DNA from: Candidatus Latescibacterota bacterium
GTDB lineage: Bacteria; JAAXHH01; JABIQT01
Length of the DNA stretch: 8,967 bases
Direction: 5' to 3'
Assembly: GCA_018667995.1 (NCBI GenBank)
Contig: JABIQT010000970.1
Coordinates: 1-8,967 of the forward strand
The notes beneath the pieces were generated by a model that was given only the letters and a program-made list of their open reading frames with translations, was not told the origin of the DNA and ran no database searches. This document shows positions 211-8,967 of the stretch, piece after piece; positions within the stretch are counted from its first letter, which is position 1; the number at the start of each line of letters is the position of its first letter. A program made the position numbers and the translations under genes.

Positions 211-1164
211 CTATTCGTGGTTATTGAGTCCCAATCTTCGAATGAGACTCACCAGGTTTGATCGGTTCATTTTAAGCTGTCTGGCTGCTTCGCTGCGGTT
301 GCCATCGCACTTCTCCAACGTATCCTCAATCAGCTGCTTTCGGAATTGATTCAAGGCCTCGGTGTAACCAAGCTGATGCGTTGATGGATCCGTCATCACA
401 GGATCTGCCTCGGGGATCTTCTCTGAATGATTCCCGAGATGTATCGGTTCACCCTTTTGGACGAGAGCTACTGCTCGGTCGATCTCGTTCTGTAACTCTC
501 TGACGTTTCCTGGCCAATGGTAAGATTTGAGGGCTTCGAGCACTCCGGGGGCGAAGTGGATGGATTTCTTCTGATCGCTATTGGCCCTGTCCAGGAATGT
601 CTGTGCAAGAAGAGGAATGTCATCGGGACGCTCTCTGAGGGCGGGCAAGTGAATGGGAAATACGGAGAGACGATAGTACAGATCGGTCCGAAAATGGCCC
701 GATTCTGCCTGCGCCTGGAGATCTTTATTGGTGCTGGCAATCACGCGTACGTCTACCGGCCTGGCGCCAAACTCGCCCAGGCGTTGCACCTGACGTTCTT
801 GAAGCACTCTGAGAAGATGGACCTGTGCCTCATCGCTCAATTCACCAATTTCATCCAATAGTGCAGTGCCACCCTCAGCCTCTTCAAAGAGGCCTGCCCG
901 GTCATCCTGGGCATCTGTAAACGTCCCCTTTTTATGGCCGAAGATGGTGCTGGCCAACAGCGTATTCGGCACAGCGCCGCAGTTCAGTTCGAGCATACGG
1001 TTACCGCGTCGATGACTGTTGTTGTGGATGGCCCGCGCCACCAATTCCTTACCAGTACCGGTCTCACCCGTAACCAGAATGGTCAAGTCCGAATCGGCTG
1101 CGCACTTTATTAGCGTGTGCACCTGCTGCATTTTTGCGGACGTGCCGATTATCTGATTGAGCAC
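211..1164 (-). CDS. Sigma-54-dependent transcriptional activator without receiver domain (PspF-like layout)
   Basis: A 317-residue enhancer-binding protein that would use ATP hydrolysis to open promoters held by RNA polymerase-sigma-54. Visible AAA+ parts in order are Walker A GETGTGKE (33-40), the L1 loop GTFTDA (80-85), Walker B LLDEIGE (102-108), sensor I around ASTNKDL (143-149), FRTDLYYRL with arginine fingers (158-166) and sensor II WPGNVREL (217-224). A Fis-type helix-turn-helix ends the protein (about 281-313, GNRSEAARQLKMNRSN). The AAA+ domain starts almost at residue 5, so there is no receiver, GAF or PAS domain. Length and layout resemble PspF, about 325 aa. The L1 loop differs from canonical GAFTGA in two positions but keeps the key F-T pair. 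The start is GTG with GGAG 5 nt upstream; an in-frame stop about 20 codons further upstream excludes a lost receiver in this frame. Two sigma-54-like promoters lie upstream in the same transcription direction. Confidence 0.93.
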   Translation of the reverse strand: MLNQIIGTSAKMQQVHTLIKCAADSDLTILVTGETGTGKELVARAIHNNSHRRGNRMLELNCGAVPNTLLASTIFGHKKGTFTDAQDDRAGLFEEAEGGTALLDEIGELSDEAQVHLLRVLQERQVQRLGEFGARPVDVRVIASTNKDLQAQAESGHFRTDLYYRLSVFPIHLPALRERPDDIPLLAQTFLDRANSDQKKSIHFAPGVLEALKSYHWPGNVRELQNEIDRAVALVQKGEPIHLGNHSEKIPEADPVMTDPSTHQLGYTEALNQFRKQLIEDTLEKCDGNRSEAARQLKMNRSNLVSLIRRLGLNNHE

Positions 1165-1297: not shown

Positions 1298-2569
1298 CTA
1301 AGTTTTAAGCTTCCTATTGTGCTTCGCTGCCGGGAAGAGGACGTTATTCAGTATCAATCGGTAACCCGGAGAATTCTTATGCAGATTGAGATTAGTAGGA
1401 GGGTCGTTGACGTTGTGCTCCTCATCTTCGGGGTCATGGCCACCGTAGAACACGAACGATCCCTTCCCGAAATTGTCGTAGATGTACTTCACGCGATCGG
1501 TCCCTGCTTCCTCGCCCAAGACTACGACCGTTCCCTTCAGAAGGCGTTTGTTGAACGTCGTCAGCAGACCGTAGAAACCGGCTATATAGCTGGCATGATT
1601 CTGTGTCAACATCGTAGGCACCGGATCGTGCTTGGCTGAGAATTCAAACAGGGTGAATGATTTCGTGGGCGTCTTATTCGCGTTTACCTGGTTCATATCG
1701 ATGTCGGAGTAGGCACCGTTTCTCGGATCTTTCTCAATGCTGAAATCCTTGAACGCGAAGGTTTTTTCATAATCCAATCCCGCTTCGCTTTTCCGAGTAA
1801 TCGGAGTACCGTCGTATTCAGGAGGTACGATATCGATCCCTTCGGCCGAGAGTGCAATCTCCAACGTCTCTGTAGACGAACACATAGCGAAAAGAAATCC
1901 GCCGTGGGCTACGTACGATCTTATGGTGCGGGCCAGTTCCTTCTTTTCTTCGGCGACCGACCGAAACCCAAGACTCTTGGACGTAGTCTCCGCAGATTCT
2001 TGCTGTTGTCTGTACCATTCGGTCTTTCGGAATGTGTAGAACTTACTGTACTGTCCTGTGAAGTCCTCGTGGTGAAGATGGACCCAGTCGTATTTCTCCA
2101 GCCAACCTGAAAGCACCTCTTTGTCCCAAATCTGATCATAGGGTACCTCTGCATAGTCGAGGGCCATAGAAACAGCGTCATCCCATGGCCGGTTATCGGG
2201 CGGGCGGTAGACAGCTATGCGAGGGGCTTTTTCGAGCAGCATACGCTCCATATTGTTGGCTTCCATATGATCATGAATTCGACGCAACTCCGCCGGACTC
2301 ACCGATGTAAAACTCACGCCCCGAAGTCGAGCGGCCCGGATAGATTTCTCACTCGCAGGCATCACAAAGGAGCCTCCCCGGTAGTTGAGAAGCCACTCCA
2401 CGTCCTCGTCCTCTGTGAGAGCAAGGTAGGCGAGTCCATAGGCCTTCAAGTGGTTGTTCTGTTTCAGTCCCATGGGTACCAGCATCTGTTGCCCGGCTGC
2501 AAAGGCTGTAGGCCACAGCGAAGAAACGATAACCAACGCAATTAAAAGACGTGAGATGTACTGTACCAT
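1298..2569 (-). CDS. Exported amidotransferase-fold protein, often annotated 'asparagine synthetase B'
   Basis: A 423-residue protein with a Sec signal peptide (hydrophobic residues about 8-24, AFA-A cleavage near 24-25), so it acts in the periplasm or cell envelope. From memory it matches a family common in Bacteroidota and relatives. Family-like stretches are VPMGLKQNNHLKAYGLAY (31-48), WLLNYRGGSF (59-68), GGFLFAMCSSTETLEIAL (223-240) and YGGHDPEDEEHNVNDPP (375-391), then the C-terminal SPGYRLILNNVLFPAAK. GGFLFAMCSS resembles a nucleophile elbow of class I glutamine-amidotransferase-like folds, with Cys230 the candidate nucleophile. True AsnB has Cys2 at the N-terminus and a C-terminal synthetase domain; neither is seen, so that name is very likely wrong. 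The true reaction is unknown. The ATG overlaps the TGA of a small upstream ORF (TGATG). The sigma-54 activator follows after 133 nt. Confidence 0.88.
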   Translation of the reverse strand: MVQYISRLLIALVIVSSLWPTAFAAGQQMLVPMGLKQNNHLKAYGLAYLALTEDEDVEWLLNYRGGSFVMPASEKSIRAARLRGVSFTSVSPAELRRIHDHMEANNMERMLLEKAPRIAVYRPPDNRPWDDAVSMALDYAEVPYDQIWDKEVLSGWLEKYDWVHLHHEDFTGQYSKFYTFRKTEWYRQQQESAETTSKSLGFRSVAEEKKELARTIRSYVAHGGFLFAMCSSTETLEIALSAEGIDIVPPEYDGTPITRKSEAGLDYEKTFAFKDFSIEKDPRNGAYSDIDMNQVNANKTPTKSFTLFEFSAKHDPVPTMLTQNHASYIAGFYGLLTTFNKRLLKGTVVVLGEEAGTDRVKYIYDNFGKGSFVFYGGHDPEDEEHNVNDPPTNLNLHKNSPGYRLILNNVLFPAAKHNRKLKT

Positions 2570-2772
2570 CAGCCGTCTGACCTTTCTGGCGAAATCTCAT
2601 TTTTCGCAGCGGAATGCTGTTGAGACAATCTATAGGGATCGGAAACGTCCGCGGCGGGCCGTTCCTGTTGCCCGAACGAACTGAGGCTCTGCCAACGGAG
2701 CACAGATGGAATAATTGGAACATTCTGAGTACTACATATTTGACTGATTGTGCTCTGATCGTCTGCACACAT
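2569..2772 (-). CDS. Small ORF (67 aa) overlapping the start of the exported protein gene
   Basis: This ORF starts at an ATG with GGAG 7 nt upstream (2780-2783) and ends in a TGA sharing one base with the ATG of the next gene, the classic TGATG overlap of translationally coupled genes. The product begins MCADDQSTISQICSTQ, is hydrophilic, has no signal peptide or membrane segment, and resembles no family I know. A sigma-54-like promoter (2825-2840) has its predicted start about 41 nt upstream of this ATG. The supports are the ribosome site, the overlap and the promoter spacing; the amino-acid sequence gives none. It may be a small protein, or an untranslated leader of the next gene that is open by chance. 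A further GTG in frame at 2787 lies upstream of the GGAG and is less likely. Confidence 0.4.
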   Translation of the reverse strand: MCADDQSTISQICSTQNVPIIPSVLRWQSLSSFGQQERPAADVSDPYRLSQQHSAAKNEISPERSDG

Positions 2773-2779
2773 GGCTATT

Positions 2780-2783
2780 CTCC
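2780..2783 (-). promoter_or_regulatory. Ribosome binding site of the 67-aa ORF
   Basis: GGAG on the minus strand, 7 nt before the ATG at 2770-2772. It favours this ATG over the GTG at 2787. Confidence 0.4.
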
Positions 2784-2824
2784 GCACAACGTTTTGAATT
2801 TGATAGGTGACATGCCTCTACAGT

Positions 2825-2840
2825 TACAAGTACCGTGCCA
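2825..2840 (-). promoter_or_regulatory. Sigma-54 (-24/-12) promoter for the small ORF, exported protein and activator
   Basis: The minus strand reads TGGCACGGTACTTGTA. This matches the sigma-54 consensus TGGCACG-N4-TTGCA at every fixed position except the -12 base (T for C), and GG to GT spacing is the required N10. With the -12 base at 2826, transcription should start near 2814, giving a leader of about 41 nt to the ATG at 2772. A sigma-54 activator gene lies downstream on the same strand. An inverted repeat that could serve as enhancer sites is centred about 78 and 154 bp upstream of the predicted start. Confidence 0.65.
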
Positions 2841-2886
2841 TATGAGAGATTTCTTTGGGCGGTGGGGCTTGTAATGGTTGTATAAA

Positions 2887-2972
2887 TTGTTTATTTGTAT
2901 ACAGTTGTAATGAAAATGGTCCCAATTTGGTAACGAGTCGCTTTTGATGTATAACCTTAATGAAATAAACAA
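2887..2972. repeat. Perfect 10-bp inverted repeat, candidate enhancer sites
   Basis: TTGTTTATTT (2887-2896) and AAATAAACAA (2963-2972) are exact reverse complements with 66 bp between them. They lie about 78 and 154 bp upstream of the start predicted for the promoter at 2825-2840, within the usual reach of sigma-54 activators. A direct repeat TTGTATA (2878-2884 and 2895-2901) overlaps the nearer arm. The arms are AT-rich in an AT-rich region, so chance is possible. Confidence 0.35.
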
Positions 2973-3048
2973 GTTACGTCCTTGTGGTCGCGTGAATCAA
3001 TCACCAGCTCCCATCAGGTAATCTGAGAGGATATTCCCGATCAATGGT

Positions 3049-3120
3049 CAGATACGACTAACCGCAGGCCAATTCTGGCCGAAATGTGCGGCTGCGCATA
3101 GACGGAGCGTAGTCGATCTG
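3049..3120. other. 72-nt nested stem structure (RNA fold or DNA cruciform)
   Basis: Read on the plus strand, CAGATACGACTA (3049-3060) pairs with TAGTCGATCTG (3110-3120): 11 pairs with one bulged A at 3054. Inside, CCGCA (3062-3066) pairs with TGCGG (3087-3091), and GGCCA (3067-3071) pairs with TGGCC (3076-3080) around a 4-nt loop, leaving a 6-nt bulge (3081-3086). An 18-nt strand (3092-3109) closes the junction; its CGC/GCG ends could pair. Twenty-one base pairs in 72 nt is far more than expected by chance in an intergenic stretch. It lacks the R/L boxes of an integron attC site and the T-arm of a tRNA. Confidence 0.5.
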
Positions 3121-3192
3121 CCTATAGATAGGGAGAACTGGCCCTGTCCAAGCGCTCTATCGAAGTATTCAATTAATGCATTTTGGGTAAAT

Positions 3193-3219
3193 TGTAGAAA
3201 ATGGGGTAGGTTTTCTACA
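3193..3219. repeat. 9-bp perfect hairpin at the predicted 5' end of the sigma-54 transcript
   Basis: TGTAGAAAA (3193-3201) and TTTTCTACA (3211-3219) are exact complements with a 9-nt loop. Transcription from the site at 3231-3247 should begin near 3221, so the hairpin would occupy the first bases of the RNA. A third copy of TGTAGA sits at 3223-3228, just before the predicted start, so the motif may also be a protein site. Confidence 0.5.
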
Positions 3220-3230
3220 TCTGTAGATAT

Positions 3231-3247
3231 TCGCAATAAGAGTGCCA
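3231..3247 (-). promoter_or_regulatory. Sigma-54 (-24/-12) promoter, consensus core match
   Basis: The minus strand reads TGGCACTCTTATTGCGA. TGGCAC and TTGC are both perfect and the GG-N10-GC spacing is exact. With the -12 C at 3233 the start would be near 3221. No protein gene follows at once; the reading enters a hairpin-rich 200-nt stretch and then the second sigma-54 site. A 25-bp palindrome is centred about 121 bp upstream of the start. The ten fixed bases are expected about once per million positions, so a chance match here is unlikely. Confidence 0.7.
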
Positions 3248-3329
3248 AGTCGTTCAGATTACTGATAAGCATGTCATCACTAATATTTTTAACTAGTTAC
3301 CTAAAGCTGCATAGCGATGAACCATATTT

Positions 3330-3354
3330 CACATGTGTCATAATCACACATGTG
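3330..3354. promoter_or_regulatory. 25-bp near-perfect palindrome, candidate enhancer (UAS) of a sigma-54 activator
   Basis: The arms CACATGTGT (3330-3338) and ACACATGTG (3346-3354) are perfect complements. The seven central bases continue the symmetry except for one mismatched pair around a central A. CACATGTG is itself a palindrome and occurs twice, with centres 17 bp apart. The centre at 3342 is about -121 from the start predicted for the promoter at 3231-3247, where dimeric Fis-type activators commonly bind. The activator encoded at 211-1164 is the obvious candidate, but this is inferred from position only. Confidence 0.5.
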
Positions 3355-3359
3355 GTAGT

Positions 3360-3429
3360 GCCTGTTTCTGGAGCGTAACTAATTGTAATAAGCTATATTA
3401 CGCTGTAAATGGATAATAGGGACACAGGC
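3360..3429. repeat. Nested inverted repeat, possible REP/MITE-like remnant
   Basis: GCCTGT (3360-3365) pairs with ACAGGC (3424-3429), and inside it AGCGTAA (3372-3378) pairs with TTACGCT (3398-3404). The ends read AGTGCCTGTTTCTGG and ATAATAGGGACACAGGC. Motifs of the form AATAGGGACAGGCAC are common at small repeats linked to REP-associated transposases and some insertion sequences, which is the reason for the guess. No transposase or target duplication is seen. It may instead be another regulator site for the promoter at 3231-3247. Confidence 0.3.
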
Positions 3430-3487
3430 TGTATATAAATCATACGTCTGCGAGGTACACCGTCGTCTGAAGGAACTGTTAATTCTG

Positions 3488-3799
3488 GTGATCATAGCGA
3501 TTTGGGCGAAAAATGATATCGGCGATCGACTTCAATTTGTAGGTGAGTCAGATTCCGCCGATTTGCCGGTACTGCAATCATTATCTCAGATCGTAGAGCG
3601 TGATCGCGTAGGTTTGGGGCTCGGTCATTGGCTCCCGATCAACATGAATCCAGAGATCGATTCTTTGCGTGATTTTCCGGCACCTATCGGGCCAGGTTCC
3701 CAGATTCCCTCCGAGCCATTCGTGCTGTTCATCTGGGTTCGGGGTGATGATCGTGGCGAACTGATTCACCTTTCCCGACAGGCGTGCCGGTGGCTATGA
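3488..3799 (+). CDS. Doubtful ORF of 103 aa in a coding-like, GC-richer island
   Basis: A plus-strand frame opens at a GTG, and without a start codon already near 3392, and closes at a TGA at 3797-3799. The product includes SDSADLPVLQSLSQIVERD and ends HLSRQACRWL; no family is recognised. AAGGA lies 13 nt before the GTG, too far to be convincing. A competing minus-strand frame (3581-3769, GTG start, 62 aa, beginning MNQFATIITPNPDEQHEW) has GC-rich third positions and is equally plausible. The island is visibly richer in G+C than the flanking 2880-3480. It may be a remnant of a decayed gene on either strand, or chance. Confidence 0.2.
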   Translation: MIIAIWAKNDIGDRLQFVGESDSADLPVLQSLSQIVERDRVGLGLGHWLPINMNPEIDSLRDFPAPIGPGSQIPSEPFVLFIWVRGDDRGELIHLSRQACRWL

Positions 3800-4169
3800 C
3801 CGGATTTCTCGCTGTGAATGGCTATAGACGCATTACGGCGCGGTCGTGGTAATGACAGGACGGGCTATGAGGATGGTATGGGGAACCCCACCGGGGATAC
3901 GGCCGCTTTGCTAATAGTAGCTATTAGGACAGACCGGACGGCATATGAGTACTAGTCAGGTGATTGGCTGTTAAGATGCGTGGAGAATGAAGGAGCTGGT
4001 TCGTAGATTTAGTTCAATTAGGATGGGAGGACATGAATCTAAACGAGCTGAGTGGAGCTACAGCCTAATTACTGAAGAGGGTGGCGACTGAATTCAGTGG
4101 ATGTTGTGGCCTTACGATCTGAGTAGGAAAATCGAATAGTTACAGATTCCGTGAGGCTTCAGGCAGATA
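3800..4169. other. Gene-free stretch with short palindromes
   Basis: No convincing gene is seen between the doubtful ORF and the end of lpxK. It holds CCCC-ACC-GGGG (3886-3895 region), a 7-bp inverted repeat CTAATAG/CTATTAG with a 3-nt loop (3911-3927), and a perfect 12-bp palindrome ACTGAATTCAGT (4087-4098). An 11-codon ORF at 4033-4068 has a purine-rich GGGAGGA, but it ends only 1 nt before the ATG, too close to function normally. No stem followed by a T-run, read from the minus strand, marks the end of the lpxK transcript. Confidence 0.5.
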
Positions 4170-5261
4170 CTATTTCATCCGATTGATTTCTGTGAGTTTC
4201 TCCTCCAGAATATCCTCACCGGATAATACTTCCAGCTCAATATCCAGAACCAGAATCCTGGATCGCTCGCACTCCAGTGGAATCCGTACTGCATCCTTTT
4301 CCGTCGTCACCACCCATTCGCATTGGTGCTGCTTTGACTGGTGTATAGCCCGGGATACTTCTGTGGCCCGGAAAAGGTGATGGTCCGGATAACGTACGGT
4401 CATGGATGTCAGAGCACCTAGCTGCCTGAGGGTTCGTTCGAAGGATCCTGGATTTGCGATTCCGGCTAAGGTCATTACACTCATGTCCGAAATATGGTCG
4501 AGGGGATACGGCTCGCTGTCAGACAGGCGTCGGAGGCCGTTGGGGCGGTACCGGGTTTCGAGCATAGGGACGCCGGGGTGGTAGGCTTGAATTTGCTGTT
4601 TCGTTTCTTCGAGGCGGTCCGACTGGTCGATTCGTGTCAGAACGACCAGGTCCGCCCTGCTGAGGGACGACCATGGCTCCCGCAGGGCTCCGGCGGGCAG
4701 CAGGTAATCATCGCGACGACTGGCATCGACAACTACGATATCGAGATCTCTCTTGAGTTGTCTGTGCTGGAATCCGTCGTCAAGAAGCACCACGTCAGGC
4801 TGAAACTGGCGGACCGCTATGCGTCCCGATTCTGCGCGGTTGCCTCCAACGATGACTGGGACCCCAGGTAGTGTGGTGGCAAGCAGCAAAGGTTCATCAC
4901 CGGCATCCTGCCAGCTCATCTGTGGACCCGCGCCTGTGGAGACAACCGCAGTTCCAGCATTCCTCCGACCATACCCACGACTGAGGATCGATGCACGATG
5001 GCCATTACGCGAGATCGCTCTGGCCAGGTGCCGCACGACTGGCGTTTTGCCTGCACCACCAGCCGTAAGGCCACCCACACTGATTACGGGTACATCGAGC
5101 CGTTCCAGCGGCGGATTTTCGGCCGAATAACGCTTATTGCGGAGTGCCACGCCAATCTTGTATAGCACTGCCGGGAGGCGCAACAGGGCACGTGTCAGGG
5201 CGATGCCCGGCGCACGATCAGCGGTGTTCGCAACCCGTTCAAAAAGACTGTACATTGACAT
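4170..5261 (-). CDS. lpxK: Tetraacyldisaccharide 4'-kinase
   Basis: It phosphorylates the 4' position of the lipid A disaccharide at the inner face of the cytoplasmic membrane. With the start chosen here it has 363 residues, close to the family norm. Visible motifs are the P-loop GGLTAGGAGKTP (63-74), DDGFQHRQLKRDLDI (161-175) with the conserved DDGFQH, LPAGALREP with downstream RADLVVLTR, AGIANPGSF, YPDHHLF and VTTEKDAVRI. The hydrophobic or amphipathic N-terminus fits membrane association. The start at ATG 5261 is preferred because AGGT (5268-5271) lies 6 nt upstream; a GTG eight codons earlier (5285) has no ribosome site. It follows waaA by 55 nt and is the last gene of the lipid A cluster. 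Confidence 0.95.
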   Translation of the reverse strand: MSMYSLFERVANTADRAPGIALTRALLRLPAVLYKIGVALRNKRYSAENPPLERLDVPVISVGGLTAGGAGKTPVVRHLARAISRNGHRASILSRGYGRRNAGTAVVSTGAGPQMSWQDAGDEPLLLATTLPGVPVIVGGNRAESGRIAVRQFQPDVVLLDDGFQHRQLKRDLDIVVVDASRRDDYLLPAGALREPWSSLSRADLVVLTRIDQSDRLEETKQQIQAYHPGVPMLETRYRPNGLRRLSDSEPYPLDHISDMSVMTLAGIANPGSFERTLRQLGALTSMTVRYPDHHLFRATEVSRAIHQSKQHQCEWVVTTEKDAVRIPLECERSRILVLDIELEVLSGEDILEEKLTEINRMK

Positions 5262-8498: not shown

Positions 8499-8967
8499 TC
8501 AGCCAAAATACCAGCGTGCAACGATGGCCAGAGTAACGGCTGTCATAGATTGAAACGTGCGACGATCGCTCTTCAGAGCGGCTCTCAGGTCGAATGGCGG
8601 ACCGGCCGCGTGAGCGTACGTCCTGGGGCGCGGAAAGAATCGGGGCACACCGGCGAGGAATCTGGTGTATTCATCTCCAAAGGTCTCCTGCAGGTGTTCT
8701 TCCTCCAATGACACGATCATGGCATACTGAATACCGAATGCCAGAATAAAGACCACGAGCATATAGGGCATCCAGGCCCATGCCATGACACAGAGACCAA
8801 GGCTGAGCACAAAATTACCCACATAGATCGGATTGCGGACATGAGCATAGGGGCCGGTTGTGATTAGCATGGGTGCACCGACATGACGTGTTCGCGTGGC
8901 CGATCCCGCATAGCCCACCGACCACAGACGGATAGATTCCCCGAGAACCGCCATGGACCCCCCCAAA
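8499..8967 (-). CDS. Isoprenylcysteine/phospholipid methyltransferase-like membrane protein (C-terminal part)
   Basis: The frame is open to the right edge, so the true start is outside; the TTG at 8966 is only the first whole codon. The 155 visible residues carry GPYAHVRNPIYVGNF (about 38-52), hydrophobic membrane segments around 48-85, and EEEHLQETFGDEYTRFLAGVPRFFP (about 88-112). The RNP-Y motif and the E-E...F...Y..Y/F pattern are typical of the ICMT/PEMT/NnrU-like superfamily of S-adenosylmethionine-dependent membrane methyltransferases. A last hydrophobic stretch (about 138-152) may be one more membrane segment. Bacterial members rarely have known substrates; a lipid substrate fits the lipid A neighbours but is inference. 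Confidence 0.8.
   Translation of the reverse strand, partial: LGGSMAVLGESIRLWSVGYAGSATRTRHVGAPMLITTGPYAHVRNPIYVGNFVLSLGLCVMAWAWMPYMLVVFILAFGIQYAMIVSLEEEHLQETFGDEYTRFLAGVPRFFPRPRTYAHAAGPPFDLRAALKSDRRTFQSMTAVTLAIVARWYFG

Follow-up and report, generated by a model that had tools for sequence, protein, structure and literature searches.

A likely sigma-54 promoter far upstream of an activator-encoding operon in a Latescibacterota genome

Qrr and CrcZ are small RNAs whose transcription is driven by sigma-54. Pxr of Myxococcus xanthus, an RNA of ~108 nt, is likewise made from a sigma-54 promoter, which lies downstream of the neighbouring activator gene (PMC5568312). In E. coli, the tested sigma-54 promoters of relA, nagE, and yqeB have leaders of 360–760 nt (PMC4591121). 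Among sigma-54 activators, NorR with the G266D substitution, at the fifth position of the GAFTGA loop, escapes repression by its sensor domain and is constitutive (PMC2941729).

Here, we focus on a putative sigma-54 promoter, P1, in a stretch of 8,967 nt (the window) from a Candidatus Latescibacterota bacterium, whose nearest relatives among the genomes compared are Latescibacterota MAGs. P1 is like the E. coli relA, nagE, and yqeB promoters in lying several hundred nucleotides from a gene on the same strand, and its distance of 652 nt falls within their range of 360–760 nt. The E. coli promoters are located inside genes, are conserved, and have been tested (PMC4591121), whereas P1 is intergenic, is predicted from sequence, and has a second sigma-54-like promoter, P2, nearer the gene. 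As with Pxr, the sigma-54 promoter is followed by stable stem-loops, no protein gene stands directly behind it, and an activator gene is nearby; unlike in Pxr, the activator gene is downstream of P1 and the RNA is a predicted one. By analogy, P1 would resemble the E. coli long-leader promoters if transcription reads through, and Pxr if it stops early. The features discussed below are collected in Table 1.

Table 1. Position and character of the features discussed, in coordinates of the window.
Feature	Coordinates	Strand	Remarks
Sigma-54 activator gene	211..1164	minus	AAA+ and Fis-type HTH, no N-terminal sensor domain; GTFTDA replaces GAFTGA
P423 gene	1298..2569	minus	423 aa; ThuA / class I amidotransferase-like; signal-peptide-like N-terminus; diverged duplicate within a conserved family
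67-aa ORF	2569..2772	minus	GGAG 7 nt before ATG; TGATG overlap with next gene; probably not a gene
P2, second sigma-54-like promoter	2826..2840	minus	TGGCACGGTACTTGT; predicted +1 near 2814; one mismatch from pattern
G+C-rich block, long branched hairpin	3005..3142		A+T-rich flanks; single copy in genome
Hairpin	3193..3219	minus	TGTAGAAAA-N9-TTTTCTACA; +3 to +29 of predicted P1 transcript
P1, sigma-54 promoter core	3233..3247	minus	TGGCAC-TCTTA-TTGC; predicted +1 = 3221; exact pattern match
Palindrome	3330..3354		CACATGTGT-N7-ACACATGTG; candidate activator-binding site
Dyp-type peroxidase relic	3530..3904	plus	One frame, two in-frame stops; between lipid A cluster and P1

The P1 core and its surroundings

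The P1 core, TGGCACTCTTATTGC, matches TGGCAC-N5-TTGC exactly and holds its GG and GC dinucleotides at the exact -24/-12 spacing, as the original prediction had claimed; the start coordinate given there, 3231, takes in two extra bases outside the core. RNA synthesis is predicted to start 12 nt beyond the GC and to proceed leftwards. P1 is the sole exact match on both strands of the window, where 0.02 are expected from base composition, which agrees with the earlier claim that ten such fixed bases should occur by chance far less than once. When up to two mismatches are allowed, the window contains 13 matches against 8.0 ± 2.9, with no clear enrichment. The TTGC of P1 is followed by G, where A or T is usual, a point against the promoter.

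The genome (6.06 Mb in 1165 contigs) was searched with the same pattern, and the reversed pattern served as a control. The pattern matches exactly at 32 sites and the control at 9 (Poisson P about 2e-9), so about a quarter of the genome's exact matches, and fewer of the intergenic ones, are expected by chance. Many intergenic exact matches sit 15–235 nt ahead of good ORFs, which include a prepilin-like and a sigma-factor-like gene (named from their translations); at 652 nt, the distance from P1 to its gene is an outlier among the genome's sites. The genome encodes rpoN: the C-terminal part of RpoN lies at the edge of one contig (G000:C643), with a Sigma54_DBD match of 55.2 bits against a cut-off of 22.8. 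It also has at least nine sigma-54 activator-like matches. Because of the genome-wide excess, the many intergenic matches near gene starts, and the presence of RpoN, the P1 motif is a credible promoter.

Two other contigs of this genome, G000:C188 (L121) and G000:C289 (L134), carry an activator gene behind which, within 170–300 nt, come a sigma-54 site and a gene for a small or secreted protein. These cases suggest a recurring activator-promoter-target module in the window's own genome.

Upstream of P1 is a perfect palindrome of 9+9 bp, the centre of which lies 121 bp upstream of the predicted +1. The site of a sigma-54 activator is expected at about 80–200 bp upstream. An equally good inverted repeat arises in 49 of 3000 dinucleotide shuffles (1.6%) of the 200 nt upstream, and for this reason the palindrome is suggestive, and not conclusive, as the activator site of P1. 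It is not a genome-wide regulon motif, since the genome holds no second copy at up to three mismatches.

To the right of P1, a minus-strand lipid A gene cluster (lpxB, DUF374, kdtA, lpxK) ends at 4170. Beside lpxB, a minus-strand stretch at 8499–8966 encodes a membrane methyltransferase with a sub-cut-off match to LmtA (67.8 bits vs 325); LmtA is the Leptospira lipid A Kdo2 1-phosphate O-methyltransferase. Nearer P1 is a peroxidase relic, which shares 37% identity with a Dyp-type protein of Burkholderia that carries no annotation (E 2e-20). It has no Pfam match, and we take it to be of the Dyp-type family from its recognisable GYEDGTENP motif. The relic indicates that the DNA close to P1 is decaying.

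Such decay fits a reading that leaves the operon to P2 alone and takes P1 for a fortuitous match, or for a defunct promoter within eroding intergenic sequence. The control pattern, with its nine exact matches per genome, and the ORFs near P1, which lack a coding signal, point in the same direction, and P1 is possibly dispensable because the operon has a nearer promoter of its own. The clear genome-wide excess, the many intergenic matches near gene starts, and the palindrome at the distance expected of an activator site argue otherwise, and we regard a chance or dead P1 as rather unlikely. It was also considered that the motif could be a coding coincidence within a 74-aa ORF (3272–3051, minus), which reads it as TTG GCA CTC TTA TTG (L-A-L-L-L) and by eye resembles the start of a GAF domain. 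This was ruled out: the ORF has no Pfam GAF match, does not appear when the genome is matched to GAF_2 up to an E of 1, is outscored by shuffled controls in comparison with the GAF proteins of this genome, and carries no coding signal; no relatives of it were found by any search tried. P1 is likely a real sigma-54 promoter, as originally proposed, a reading supported by the genome-wide excess, rpoN, the position of the palindrome, and an activator gene on the same strand two genes downstream.

From P1 to the operon

The first credible start codon lies 652 nt from the predicted P1 RNA start, and over this whole distance the earlier remark on several hundred bases devoid of a credible ORF is borne out. 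Three small minus-strand ORFs of 74, 65, and 67 aa (3272 to 2569) have codon scores no better than those of shuffled sequence; the score was trained on the window's known genes, which reach z 6.7–8.8. The 67-aa ORF behind P2 was rejected as a gene on this score and on finding no relatives of it.

P2 and the operon that it faces were absent from the original prediction. P2 is nearer the operon than P1; from its predicted +1 it is 42 nt to the ATG at 2772 and 245 nt to the start of P423. Its variant of the pattern, TGGCACGN4TTGT, occurs eight times in the genome against once for the control, and several of the other sites are 30–55 nt ahead of good ORFs; it follows that this genome probably makes use of the TTGT form of the -12 element. 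No terminator-like site was recognised on the minus strand from 3221 to 2570. The region occurs only once in the genome, on which ground a MITE or similar repeated element was rejected, and DNA similar to 2570–3480 was found in none of 15 same-order genomes.

The predicted P1 transcript would begin, at +3, with a 9-bp hairpin. The stretch between P1 and P2 (381 nt) is more stably folded than any of 100 shuffles (z -3.45), mainly because of the block at 3001–3160, where G+C is 53% vs 35–36% in the flanks. In a folding scan of 444 windows, 3041–3160 on the minus strand comes out on top (z -4.07), tied with an unrelated one, 1121–1240 on the plus strand, in and just before the activator gene. Folded alone, the central hairpin gives about equal values on the plus (z -2.79) and minus (z -3.07) strands. 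As both strands fold alike, the fold signal alone does not prove a minus-strand RNA. No known RNA family was recognised, as Rfam gave no match.

These folds bear on a second alternative, that P1 drives a separate small regulatory RNA of roughly 220–380 nt, ended or processed before P2, in the manner of Pxr, Qrr, and CrcZ. The hairpin at +3, the strong fold of the P1–P2 stretch with its top-ranking segment, and the G+C-rich block between A+T-rich flanks all favour such an RNA, and Pxr too has an activator gene next to it and a sigma-54 promoter in front (PMC5568312). On the opposite side, no terminator-like site delimits a discrete RNA, and neither Rfam nor the 15 same-order genomes yielded a known family or a homologue from which a conserved structure could be read; the plus-strand folding of the hairpin would also be expected of an inverted repeat at the DNA level. 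We consider a separate small RNA unlikely. The original prediction had offered either a non-coding RNA or a very long leader. The leader is favoured by the missing terminator, and the free RNA is disfavoured by the lack of an Rfam match and by the strand symmetry of the hairpin. With no terminator found between the promoters, a long, partly structured leader is likelier than a separate small RNA.

The P423 gene and the sensor-less activator

The P423 and activator genes both lie on the strand of P1. P423 stands at 63% to its family, and the orthologue in the same genome (contig C901) is 73–76% identical to its relatives. The predicted structure of P423 (pLDDT 81) resembles class I amidotransferases and ThuA at low similarity, and the protein would be a secreted ThuA/amidotransferase-like one. 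Among the 34 P423 homologues in other genomes, none has an exact sigma-54 site directly in front or an activator gene close by, the one distant match (29%) being about 2–3 kb away (L093); these homologues are thereby ruled out as carriers of the same promoter.

The activator has the AAA+ interaction domain, intact Walker motifs, and Fis-type HTH of a sigma-54 activator (bEBP), with profile matches to PF00158 (3.9e-65) and PF02954 (1.2e-8). The protein begins directly at the AAA+ domain, and GTFTDA occupies residues 80–85. Its best NCBIfam resemblance is to NorR (PRK05022), and the G to D change at the fifth position of GTFTDA is that of NorR G266D (PMC2941729). Membership of the NorR family is nevertheless not supported: the score of 351.5 bits is below the cut-off of 476 and covers profile positions 190–511 only, with no full GAF-AAA+-HTH match; unlike NorR, it lacks a GAF domain, and there are no norVW-like genes in the window. 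From its sequence alone, which decides for neither, the activator may be permanently on, or it may be decaying.

The closest homologue of the activator, an 831-aa protein in another genome, G011 (53–54%), has GAFTGA in the loop, and its N-terminal part reads as a beta-propeller-like sensor joined to the AAA+ and Fis HTH domains. Its gene is followed, 190 nt on, by a perfect sigma-54 site. At this locus (G011:C43, L118), the gene spans 2040–4535, the sigma-54 site is at 4727, and two CTGTACAAATWAT repeats stand between them; a transposase-like zinc-ribbon ORF comes immediately after the site. These repeats differ from the palindrome upstream of P1. An activator site shared between them and the DNA upstream of P2 was rejected, as 77 of 500 shuffles were as good.

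It is quite improbable that a different sigma-54 activator of the genome has P1 and the palindrome in its regulon, the operon having two inputs with P2 answering to the local activator: this variant, which is compatible with the reading preferred below, draws on the nine or more activator-like matches, on the lack of a palindrome counterpart upstream of P2, and on the different repeats at L118, but the palindrome has no other copy in the genome within three mismatches.

A proposed tandem arrangement and its significance

The reading that we prefer, and on which our confidence is evenly balanced, is that P1 is real and is the distal of two tandem sigma-54 promoters, with a long leader into the P423-activator operon and the palindrome as activator site. 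P1 and the proximal P2 would both fire leftwards on the minus strand. An activator hexamer, whichever activator that may be, would assemble at the 3330–3354 palindrome and loop onto P1. The RNA from near 3221 would then run, as a 652-nt and partly structured leader, past P2 into P423 and on to the sensor-less activator gene, and the operon would be able to feed its own activator. A more elaborate reading strikes us as very doubtful, namely a sigma-54 unit with two promoters, of which the distal one produces a structured regulatory RNA, as a leader or as a small RNA, and with a naturally sensor-less activator whose GTFTDA loop has the NorR-locking change, the whole being a switch that feeds itself and controls a secreted protein present in duplicate.

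Nothing at the P1 locus appears to fall outside known kinds, and the locus seems to be a further instance of a familiar type of switch and not a new system. A literature search of limited scope on sigma54 in Latescibacter found no relevant paper. The sensor-less activator, with its GTFTDA loop, parallels in nature the NorR variant made in the laboratory. If P1 is used, it would add an intergenic case from Latescibacterota to the long-leader sigma-54 transcripts of E. coli, and would link such a leader to an operon encoding an activator of its own that seems to be unregulated.
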